Shown: positions 11,929-24,031 of the stretch, piece by piece
How the letters are laid out: the number at the start of each line of letters is the position of its first letter
Position numbering within the stretch: the stretch's first letter is position 1
Assembly: GCA_946631295.1 (NCBI GenBank)
Contig: CAMOZY010000001.1
Location: 62,001 to 126,000, forward strand
Origin: an uncultured Lachnospiraceae bacterium
GTDB lineage: Bacteria > Bacillota > Clostridia > Lachnospirales > Lachnospiraceae
Direction: 5' to 3'
Length of the DNA stretch: 64,000 nucleotides
Position numbers and translations under genes: made by a program
The notes under the pieces: model-generated
Database searches by the model: none
Told to the model about the DNA's origin: nothing
Seen by the model: only the letters and a program-made list of their open reading frames with translations

Positions 11929-11975
11929 CGGTACATCCGCAAGGCGCCCAGACCACGCCGGGCGTGTATGTACCG
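11929..11975 (+). other. Nested hairpin at the very 5' end of the cobalamin leader RNA
   Basis: An outer perfect 8-bp stem CGGTACAT/ATGTACCG (11929-11936 with 11968-11975) encloses an inner stem CGCCC/GGGCG (11945-11949 with 11960-11964). It lies between the predicted transcription start and the aptamer core and is not part of the standard cobalamin aptamer I know. It could protect the 5' end of the RNA or be an extra folding element. Confidence 0.5.
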
Positions 11976-11997
11976 GTAACTGAATAATGAATCGCTT

Positions 11998-12165
11998 ACA
12001 GGTGCCCGTATCCGGGCCAATACCATACAGATTTTTGTACGGATATGGATACGGGAGAATAGGGAAGCGGGTGAGATTCCCGCACGAACGCGTCGCCGTG
12101 TCGGTTTATGGCATTCACCTTTTGTCCGGCAGACAAGACCATTGAAGAAAGCCAGGGTTTACATG
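11998..12165 (+). ncRNA. Cobalamin (B12) riboswitch aptamer
   Basis: The conserved elements of the cobalamin aptamer appear in order: GGTGCC opening the P3 arm at 12001, the matching GGATACGGGAGAATAGGGAA block, GCGGGTGAGATTCCCGC forming P5 with its loop, a CGCCGTG block corresponding to the usual CCGCCACTGT, and the closing GAAGCCAGG near 12148. This core is diagnostic of adenosyl/methylcobalamin-sensing leaders. A transcription terminator 180 bases downstream is the likely expression platform. The genes under control are a DUF4430 surface protein and an ECF S-component, so the target process is B12 uptake. The exact 5' and 3' limits are approximate. Confidence 0.88.
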
Positions 12166-12340
12166 AATCCGGGCGCTTTGAGAAGGAATGTGAAATGTCG
12201 CTTTAAAAACCCCAGCCGAAAGACCTGCCTGTTTGTACTTTTTCAAGGTAAACTGCAATCAGTTTACTTTTGATCCCGCGTAATGGATCCGGAAAAACTT
12301 TAATCATGCACCGATCGCAAAGTGCATTATTTTTGTTGTG

Positions 12341-12369
12341 CTCCGGTTTTCCCGGAGTATTTTTTTTCC
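12341..12369 (+). terminator. Riboswitch expression-platform terminator
   Basis: The stem CTCCGG/CCGGAG (12341-12357) is followed by a TATTTTTTTT tract. It lies between the aptamer and the DUF4430 start, so B12 binding would stop transcription here. A second small hairpin (GCAC.../GTGC near 12308-12325) precedes it. The antiterminator pairing was not resolved by eye. Confidence 0.75.
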
Positions 12370-12423
12370 CGATGGGCCGGCACTTCGTAAGCAATTCATG
12401 CAAAAAGAAGGAGTATATGAAAA

Positions 12424-13239
12424 ATGGAAAAGAAAAAAGGTCTTGTAATCGGAGTGATCGTACTCGCTGCACTCGTTGCGGTATTTTTGATCGTCTACAA
12501 CATGGCTAAGCCGAAGCCTTCATCAGGAAGTTCTTCAGGAAACCAGCAGACCGCTGCTGATAATTCTAATGCACAGGCAAATGCAGATGCAGACAACAAT
12601 GAAGCAGAAGGCAGTAACGCTGAGGGCGGAAAGCATATCACCATCGAAGTAAAGAGTGCTGACGGAAGCATCGTATCCTACGATGTTGCAACAGATGCAG
12701 ATTATCTCAGACAGGCTATGGATGAGACTGAGGGACTTACCTACAGCGGAACCGAGAGCGAGTACGGAATGATGGTCGAGGTTGTCAACGGTGAGCAGGC
12801 TGTCTATGCTGAAGACAATGCTTACTGGGCATTCTATGTGAACGGTGAGTACGGTCAGTACGGAATCGACACACAGCCCGTTAACGACGGTGACAAATAT
12901 TCTATCGTATATGAGTCTGCTGTTGCATATGTCGAAGAAGGAAGCAAGCACATCACCATCGAGGTTACCGGAGCAGACGGAACTACTGTTACTTACGAAG
13001 TTGCTACCGACGCAGATTATCTCAGACAGGCTATGGATGAGACTGAGGGACTTACCTACAGCGGAACCGAGAGCGAGTACGGAATGATGGTCGAGGTTGT
13101 CAACGGTGAGCAGGCTATCTATGCTGAGGACAATGCATACTGGGCATTCTATGTAGACGGTGAGTATGGCCAGTACGGAATCGATTCACAGCCTGTTGAG
13201 GACGGTTCAACCTACTCGATCGTATACGAAGCAGCATAA
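12424..13239 (+). CDS. Surface-anchored tandem DUF4430 (transcobalamin-like) protein, B12-regulated
   Basis: A 271-residue protein. An N-terminal transmembrane anchor (about residues 6-26) and a Ser/Asn/Gln/Ala-rich spacer (about 30-72) are followed by two nearly identical DUF4430 domains (about 74-165 and 174-271). Each carries the YWAFYV.GEYGQYGID signature and the closing DG..YSIVYE. DUF4430 is related to the C-terminal beta-grasp domain of transcobalamin-type binders. With a cobalamin riboswitch upstream and an ECF S-component 49 bases downstream, the protein is best read as an extracellular corrinoid-capture protein. The start uses ATG 12424 in the DUF4430 frame; an overlapping ATG at 12418 is in another frame. 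AAGGAG lies about 10 bases before the start. Binding of B12 itself is inferred. Confidence 0.82.
   Translation: MEKKKGLVIGVIVLAALVAVFLIVYNMAKPKPSSGSSSGNQQTAADNSNAQANADADNNEAEGSNAEGGKHITIEVKSADGSIVSYDVATDADYLRQAMDETEGLTYSGTESEYGMMVEVVNGEQAVYAEDNAYWAFYVNGEYGQYGIDTQPVNDGDKYSIVYESAVAYVEEGSKHITIEVTGADGTTVTYEVATDADYLRQAMDETEGLTYSGTESEYGMMVEVVNGEQAIYAEDNAYWAFYVDGEYGQYGIDSQPVEDGSTYSIVYEAA
12697..13116 (+). repeat. 105-bp perfect direct repeat within the DUF4430 gene
   Basis: Bases 12697-12801 and 13012-13116 are identical over 105 nucleotides, offset 315 bp, including all synonymous positions. Flanking parts of the two domains differ at many third positions. The repeat marks a recent internal duplication or gene conversion of the central part of the domain. 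Confidence 0.9.
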
Positions 13240-13288
13240 AAGCTGCGGACAATACCCGGATCATATTTACGAACATTACAGGTTATAG

Positions 13289-13816
13289 ATGAAAAAAGGA
13301 TTCAGCATAAAAGATATAGCATATATCGGAATGGCAGTTGCCCTTATAGAAAGCAGTAAGGTAGCTCTGTCATTCCTGCCGAATATCGAGCTGACTTCCT
13401 TCTGGCTTGTGATGTTCACGCTTCTGATGGGGTGGAAGGCGCTTGTGATCGTCCCTGTTTTCATCGCGATAGAAGCAGGGCTTTACGGCCCGCACATATG
13501 GGTGATCATGTATCTGTATGTATGGCCGATACTTATGATCCTGACACTCATCTTCAGAAAAAATAAATCGGCTCTGTTCTGGGCTCTGTTATCGGGATTC
13601 TTCGGGCTTGCATTCGGACTGCTCTGCACCCCGGCTCAGGTGTTTTTTTTCGTAAAACCGGATTCCATGCAGAAGGCATTAAAAGCAGGCTTTACCTGGT
13701 GGGTGGCGGGAATACCGTTTGATGTTGCCCACTGCATCGGTAATTTTTCTCTGATGCTGGCCCTGTATCATCCGATACGTATAGCGGTAAACAAGCTGAG
13801 AAAAGAGCAGCTCTGA
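13289..13816 (+). CDS. ECF transporter S-component, probably cobalamin-specific
   Basis: A 175-residue integral membrane protein with about five to six hydrophobic helices and a basic C terminus, the size and hydropathy of ECF-type substrate-capture (S) components. Helix 1 begins IKDIAYIGMAVALIESSKVAL, the usual S-component small-residue-rich first helix for docking to EcfT. It is co-transcribed with the DUF4430 protein under the B12 riboswitch, so cobalamin or a cobalamin precursor is the likely substrate. No EcfA/EcfT genes lie here, so it would share a general energising module encoded elsewhere. No single motif proves substrate specificity; that part is from context. Confidence 0.75.
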   Translation: MKKGFSIKDIAYIGMAVALIESSKVALSFLPNIELTSFWLVMFTLLMGWKALVIVPVFIAIEAGLYGPHIWVIMYLYVWPILMILTLIFRKNKSALFWALLSGFFGLAFGLLCTPAQVFFFVKPDSMQKALKAGFTWWVAGIPFDVAHCIGNFSLMLALYHPIRIAVNKLRKEQL

Positions 13817-13850: not shown

Positions 13851-13888
13851 AAAAAAAGGCTTCCCGGAATTTCGGGAAGCCATTTTTT
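13851..13888. terminator. Bidirectional intrinsic terminator
   Basis: The 9-bp stem GGCTTCCCG/CGGGAAGCC has a 6-base loop, an A7 tract on the left and a T6 tract on the right. It ends both the cobalamin operon (+) and the ABC operon (-). Confidence 0.9.
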
Positions 13889-23945: not shown

Positions 23946-24031
23946 GGAGACGTATCGAAGCGGTCATAACGGGGCGCACTCGAAATGCGTTTGCCCTCCG
24001 GGGCACGAGGGTTCGAATCCCTCCGTCTCCG
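23946..24031 (+). tRNA. tRNA-Ser, anticodon CGA
   Basis: The acceptor stem GGAGACG/CGTCTCC has discriminator G. The anticodon stem CGCA/TGCG holds loop CTCGAAA, so the anticodon is CGA and reads UCG codons. A long variable arm (TGCCC/GGGCA) and the T arm GAGGG-TTCGAAT-CCCTC confirm a class II serine tRNA. CCA is not encoded. An intrinsic terminator follows immediately. A truncated integrase gene lies 120 bases downstream in the opposite orientation, consistent with this tRNA having served as an integration site. Confidence 0.95.

Follow-up and report, generated by a model that had tools for sequence, protein, structure and literature searches.

A cobalamin riboswitch-controlled pair of a transcobalamin-beta-like DUF4430 protein and a CbrT-like S-component as a putative corrinoid scavenging unit in a lachnospiraceous bacterium

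The locus that we describe here is probably a cobalamin-repressed unit for corrinoid scavenging in a B12-auxotrophic lachnospiraceous bacterium. It lies within the window, the whole 64,000-nucleotide stretch of an uncultured Lachnospiraceae genome (contig CAMOZY010000001.1) that was analyzed, and comprises a cobalamin riboswitch leader followed by genes for a membrane-anchored protein with two DUF4430 domains and for an ECF S-component (Table 1). The parts of this unit and its regulation by the riboswitch are well supported by sequence comparison; that the two proteins bind corrinoids is what we infer from their homologues and folds. An earlier sequence-only reading had proposed an uptake route in which a surface-tethered DUF4430 protein captures cobalamin and passes it to an ECF transporter and, as a reading of the genome, that interpretation is supported by our data. 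Identifying the B12 uptake systems of gut bacteria is an open problem (PMC6593275). What seems new is an ECF importer of B12 that appears, judged from sequence, to have a dedicated extracellular, transcobalamin-beta-like partner. No account linking DUF4430 to ECF transporters or to cobalamin riboswitches was found in the open-access literature that was searched, subscription papers being outside its scope.

Table 1. Features of the corrinoid scavenging locus, in window coordinates.
Feature	Position	Strand	Basis or remark
Cobalamin riboswitch aptamer (RF00174)	11985..12246	+	Full model, 53.9 bits, whole-genome search
Leader intrinsic terminator (expression platform)	12338..12368	+	9-bp stem and U-run
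Probable ribosome-binding site (aagaaggag region), before ATG at 12424	12406..12413	+	Read from sequence
Membrane-anchored tandem DUF4430 (transcobalamin-beta-like) protein, 271 aa	12424..13239	+	
N-terminal hydrophobic signal anchor, ~residues 6–27, positively charged N-terminus	12439..12504	+	Sequence
DUF4430 domain 1	12631..12921	+	
DUF4430 domain 2	12946..13236	+	Modelled, pLDDT 93
CbrT-like ECF S-component, 175 aa	13289..13816	+	6fnp_A match
Operon-closing intrinsic terminator	13858..13888	+	Terminator-like on the - strand too, for the convergent gene

The leader matched RF00174 at 11998–12232 on the + strand with 48.6 bits (E 4e-9) and, with the full model, at the position given in Table 1; both scores exceed the curated gathering cut-off of 31.5 bits. 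The R1 covariance model scored its core (12056–12230) at 92.4 bits, and that core keeps all of the positions that are invariant across 18 aligned cobalamin riboswitches (the A2 alignment). The invariant core and B12 box are followed by an expression platform, a terminator whose stem-loop also appears in the predicted fold of the leader. A cobalamin leader with its own terminator is, therefore, present as had been proposed, and of the coordinates then given, the start at 11929 was slightly early while the rest need no correction. This aptamer was the sole cobalamin riboswitch found in the host genome, which is 91% complete. Based on its riboswitch class, the leader would control transcription according to ligand. 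At low intracellular cobalamin it would be read through at the terminator and the two proteins would be made, and when cobalamin is sufficient the aptamer would close and transcription would stop at the terminator.

The search of the host genome (91% complete) found no DUF4430 gene besides the first one behind the leader. Its product matched the DUF4430 profile in two stretches (61.1 bits, cut-off 23.8) and has a hydrophobic segment at its N-terminus, which bears out the expectation of a membrane-anchored protein with two such domains. An equivalent strong hydrophobic segment was observed in nearly all DUF4430 homologues of the survey described below, and inspection of the window protein revealed no lipobox. 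The two domain copies are identical at 84 of 97 amino acids and at 248 of 291 nucleotides, and this near-identity suggests that the duplication was recent or that the copies have been kept alike by gene conversion. Between the copies (12631–13236), 60 of 60 bases in the middle of the domain are identical and divergence lies at the ends, a pattern that recent duplication or gene conversion would produce. Two-domain proteins account for 10 of the 80 in the survey, with seven in the host genus (L113–L119) and three outside it (L159, L177 and L181).

Foldseek searches with the model of DUF4430 domain 2 returned 19 matches at E ≤ 1e-3, and all were either 3u7z or transcobalamin, intrinsic factor or haptocorrin (among them 5np4, 2pmv and 4kki), so that the suggested relation of DUF4430 to the transcobalamin C-terminal fold is substantiated. 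The match to 5np4, the isolated transcobalamin beta domain with bound CNCbl, had an E of 6e-6 and a TM of 0.75. By sequence, the DUF4430 profile A1 matched haptocorrin 4kki with E 0.0018, although the match was weaker (E 0.34) for the larger profile A4, A1 being smaller and more diverse. Taken alone the sequence link to haptocorrin is thus modest, and the fold match carries more weight. Of the domain's 25 positions that are conserved at ≥90%, 18 fall within residues 46–96. This stretch probably includes counterparts of the strands and loops described as anchoring Cbl in rat transcobalamin (PMC11107200), as mapped by the order of secondary-structure elements only, and part of its conservation may reflect the fold core instead of ligand contact. 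No His or Cys conserved at ≥80% was found in the DUF4430 domain. In isolation, the beta domain of transcobalamin is reported to bind both CNCbl and Cbi (PMC5599065), and from the modelled fold it is likely that the DUF4430 protein captures corrinoids.

With the vertebrate B12 binders transcobalamin, intrinsic factor and haptocorrin (5np4, 4kki and 2pmv), the DUF4430 proteins have in common the fold (TM ~0.75), the remote sequence match to haptocorrin, and an extracellular location. In contrast to them, the bacterial proteins mostly have the beta domain only, are anchored in the membrane, are sometimes tandem and are without the alpha-alpha toroid, and their binding of Cbl is putative. Since the transcobalamin-family architecture of toroid plus beta domain was not found in the window protein, which has an anchor and two beta domains, we do not call it a transcobalamin. 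A single transcobalamin beta domain reportedly acts in B12 transport in zebrafish, where beta-domain-only B12 binders are said to have been described by Benoit et al. in 2018 (as cited in PMC11107200); these resemble DUF4430 but are eukaryotic and are without an ECF partner. The remaining Foldseek match, 3u7z, is RUMGNA_00854 of Ruminococcus gnavus, which has the same DUF4430 domain as the window protein and was named “putative metal binding protein” by its depositors. A protein very similar to RUMGNA_00854 adjoins an S-component gene in the relative G050.

The second gene encodes a protein to which neither Pfam nor NCBIfam assigned a family, and at an E of 0.001 a Pfam family is matched by only one of 65 of its homologues. 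It matched 6fnp_A with E 7.7e-5 as a single sequence and with E 2.8e-21 as a profile of the 65 homologues. That chain was the sole solved structure found by the profile, which matched no other solved S-component and no solved metal transporter, and the S-component that had been read into the operon is thereby confirmed by sequence. ECF-CbrT from Lactobacillus delbrueckii, deposited as 6fnp, is a group II ECF vitamin B12 transporter; its CbrT subunit binds both Cbl and Cbi and imports them when joined to the ECF module (PMC5997447). The matched chain, a 182-aa “membrane protein”, is taken to be the CbrT S-component based on its size and sequence. Homology makes it likely that the window S-component is specific for corrinoids. 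Its structural model (pLDDT 94) had 4huq_S as the best Foldseek match, at a non-significant E of 0.14. As with ECF-CbrT, the general ECF module is encoded elsewhere in the host genome, where one EcfT gene beside two EcfA genes and truA makes up one such module. Two records from human faeces that are labelled Bacteriophage sp., MT839276.1 and MT836162.1, encode this S-component with 39–41% identity; as both are short and carry no annotation, they may come from bacterial DNA.

The two genes form a transcription unit, as indicated by the terminator that closes the second of them and by neighboring genes that run in the opposite direction. To place this unit among its relatives, one genome per species was scanned, which yielded 197 relatives of the DUF4430 domain, and the best 80 of 197 were kept. 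A CbrT-like gene lies downstream on the same strand at 76 of these best 80 loci, with a median gap of less than 5 bases when the longest reading frames were used; the survey kept the DUF4430 genes nearest to the query, so its frequencies do not apply to DUF4430 overall. A reverse test, independent of that scan, ran the S-component profile over 118 genomes sampled evenly across the class and gave 10 close matches outside the host, nine of them with DUF4430 directly upstream. More distant matches in that sample were mostly in other ECF contexts, and some were apparently fused to long frames. The window-type S-component gene is thus nearly always paired with DUF4430, often behind a cobalamin riboswitch, unlike CbrT, for which PMC5997447 gives no extracellular partner (it mentions no DUF, operon or lipoprotein).

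Distant CbrT-like S-components were seen at the C-terminal end of long open frames of ~820–1020 aa, for example at L234, L238 and L244 of the class survey, and also at L069 (9135–11732), where the frame holds two ABC ATPase domains as well, which suggests EcfA-EcfA-S fusions. The DUF4430 domain itself also occurs in long surface proteins. It was matched in Lactococcus lactis, in which a control search found no cobalamin riboswitch, and with 41% identity at 105882–106163 of OY725838.1, a 110-kb plasmid record of Subdoligranulum variabile.

A covariance model from 18 cobalamin riboswitches of relatives was run over the 80 DUF4430 loci (1.06 Mb) and detected 38 strong cobalamin riboswitches and one marginal one. 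All 38 are directly upstream of DUF4430 on the same strand, with the aptamer ending 138–472 bases ahead of the domain. Chance does not explain this placement, because the survey genomes mostly have only one to three cobalamin riboswitches each. In the class-wide sample, a cobalamin riboswitch was present at 5 of 29 loci, all five with DUF4430. No other regulator was found at the DUF4430 loci, 16 of which were scanned against all Rfam families. The sequence-only reading had named a predominance of unrelated regulators beside DUF4430 genes as evidence against itself; what we observed beside them was a cobalamin riboswitch at nearly half of the loci and an S-component gene at almost all.

At the 42 of 80 loci without a detected riboswitch the upstream gap is shorter (median 285 versus 572 bases). 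The pair persists without a riboswitch in B12-making relatives that have BtuFCD and is, therefore, not always B12-regulated. Over the S-component tree, the riboswitch state at the pair changed 18 times on the best tree and at least 5 times on supported branches, changes so repeated that they fit gain and loss alike. A recent transfer of the riboswitch between the btu operon and the pair was considered and is unsupported by sequence comparison, in which the aptamers of the one set differ from those of the other. In G084, G086, G087, G088, G099, G104 and G107 the pair is present, and genome-wide searches found no cobalamin riboswitch and no full-length FecCD permease. A tRNA gene directly follows the riboswitch-less genus pairs at L087, L089, L090, L093, L094 and L096; the host pair has no downstream tRNA, and a tRNA of equal bit score (51.8) is at 23946–24031 of the window. 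Weak matches resembling cobalamin riboswitches were also seen directly upstream of DUF4430 lipoprotein genes at L067 (4071–4191, 20.6 bits) and L092 (1259–1364, 16.0 bits), and these may be variants too divergent to be reported by Rfam.

The host encodes a cobalamin-dependent methionine synthase (MetH) with homocysteine, pterin and B12-binding domains. Searches of its genome (G000, 91% complete) found neither a FecCD permease (PF01032) nor cbiC, a gene of corrin synthesis, and G027 (99% complete), also with the riboswitch at the pair, agrees in having no FecCD. Ten genomes of the genus carry the riboswitch at the pair; none of them has cbiC, none has a riboswitch-linked FecCD, and in eight any FecCD is absent. 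In G007, G010, G012, G026 and G028, the pair is at the same place without a riboswitch there, and the riboswitch instead precedes a FecCD-containing locus; cbiC was found in all five of these genomes with the riboswitch at BtuFCD, on the same contig and within ~13 kb. This distribution indicates that within the genus apparent auxotrophs have the riboswitch at the pair, whereas apparent producers have it at the locus for synthesis and BtuFCD. BtuFCD with its binding protein BtuF has the same task as that proposed for the pair and is, besides the pair, the main place where the genus has its cobalamin riboswitch, but its proteins are unrelated to the pair. The suggestion that the pair acts in place of the BtuF/ABC route agrees with these data.

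Outside the genus, 25 genomes that have the riboswitch at the pair included 2 with a riboswitch-linked FecCD, versus 10 among 25 that lack it there. Over 66–67 genomes, the riboswitch at the pair was negatively associated with FecCD, with Fisher p values (which ignore shared ancestry) of 1.3e-4 for riboswitch-linked and 2.2e-4 for any FecCD. The S-component tree gave five independent supported contrasts of riboswitch versus FecCD, almost all in the expected direction and too few for significance. Of the genomes outside the genus that carry the riboswitch at the pair, 21 were searched for cbiC and four have it (G059, G074, G077 and G080). As several of the relatives are metagenome assemblies of 68–99% completeness, little weight can be put on any one absence, and it is the overall pattern that supports the argument.

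From sequence and fold, we propose that the unit operates as ECF-CbrT does, but with an extracellular binder in addition. The DUF4430 protein would be held by its one N-terminal helix with the transcobalamin-beta-like domains outside the membrane, where they would bind corrinoids and raise the local concentration. The CbrT-like S-component would take the corrinoid into the membrane and dock on the single general ECF module (EcfA1-A2-T), and ATP-driven import through that module, as expected from homology to CbrT, would supply MetH. We hypothesize that the corrinoid is handed directly from the DUF4430 protein to the S-component. A further possibility, which we put forward tentatively and regard as doubtful, is a split transcobalamin, in which the membrane-tethered DUF4430 beta domain and the S-component would close on the corrinoid from two sides, in the manner of the two domains (beta and alpha) of transcobalamin, and the extracellular partner would be an obligate ECF subunit.

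Alternatively, the S-component could import the corrinoid while the DUF4430 protein stabilizes or gates it, or pulls corrinoid from, for example, protein-bound cobamide, with no delivery. We consider this unlikely, although the S-component alone explains specificity in the L. delbrueckii ECF-CbrT (PMC5997447), descriptions of ECF transporters assign the role of binding protein to the S-component itself, the DUF4430 domain is near its membrane anchor, and the two genes are tightly coupled. Against these points, the DUF4430 fold is that of proteins with cobalamin as their known ligand, the strongly conserved positions lie mostly in the probable counterparts of the elements that anchor Cbl in transcobalamin (PMC11107200), and a tandem duplication fits extra binding capacity better than it fits a structural subunit.

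Readings in which the pair carries something other than a corrinoid fare worse. Cobalamin riboswitches also control cobalt transporters (PMC7689651, PMC11477304) and, together with the name under which 3u7z was deposited, this would suit a metal-binding DUF4430 protein in an importer of cobalt or another metal whose riboswitch tunes cobalt supply. However, the domain has no widely conserved His or Cys, and cobalt import was rated very unlikely on the basis of an S-component that resembles CbrT and matched no solved metal transporter, and of the missing cbiC in all ten genomes of the genus where the riboswitch is at the pair, in which cobalt for corrin synthesis is not expected. The pair could also carry a different nutrient that is linked to B12 metabolism and merely co-regulated with cobalamin status. 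Nutrients related to MetH can be tied to B12 status, and many pairs have no riboswitch. This reading is nevertheless highly improbable, as both proteins separately resemble corrinoid binders and most genomes with the pair show no other recognizable corrinoid importer.

If corrinoid scavenging is indeed its role, the DUF4430–S-component pair, which recurs in many gut and rumen Clostridia, would be a recognizable marker for corrinoid uptake in Clostridia without B12 synthesis and BtuFCD, and it would give ECF transporters an extracellular binding partner. It offers a testable function for DUF4430 and suggests that a domain known from intrinsic factor and transcobalamin serves a B12-related role in bacteria. 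Were the split-transcobalamin arrangement true, an ECF importer would have an extracellular binding protein of its own, and this would suggest that the vertebrate B12 carriers use a domain that already served bacterial B12 uptake.

Larger clusters were also observed in the survey. Those at L072 (3449–11144), L069 (4291–11732) and L067 (4332–9401) hold DUF4430 lipoproteins, EcfT, EcfA and an S-component. L067 and L072 each encode a protein with an alpha-alpha toroid and DUF4430 (in L072 also with S-layer domains), that is, a transcobalamin-like two-domain architecture in bacteria. In relatives with BtuFCD, the riboswitch-led operon, as seen at L101 (930–4118), starts with a lipoprotein that carries a CbiK domain (cobalt chelatase), followed by a BtuF-like binding protein, and a chelatase domain on this lipoprotein was unexpected. 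The larger, toroid-type clusters at L069, L072 and L076 stand behind cobalamin riboswitches.
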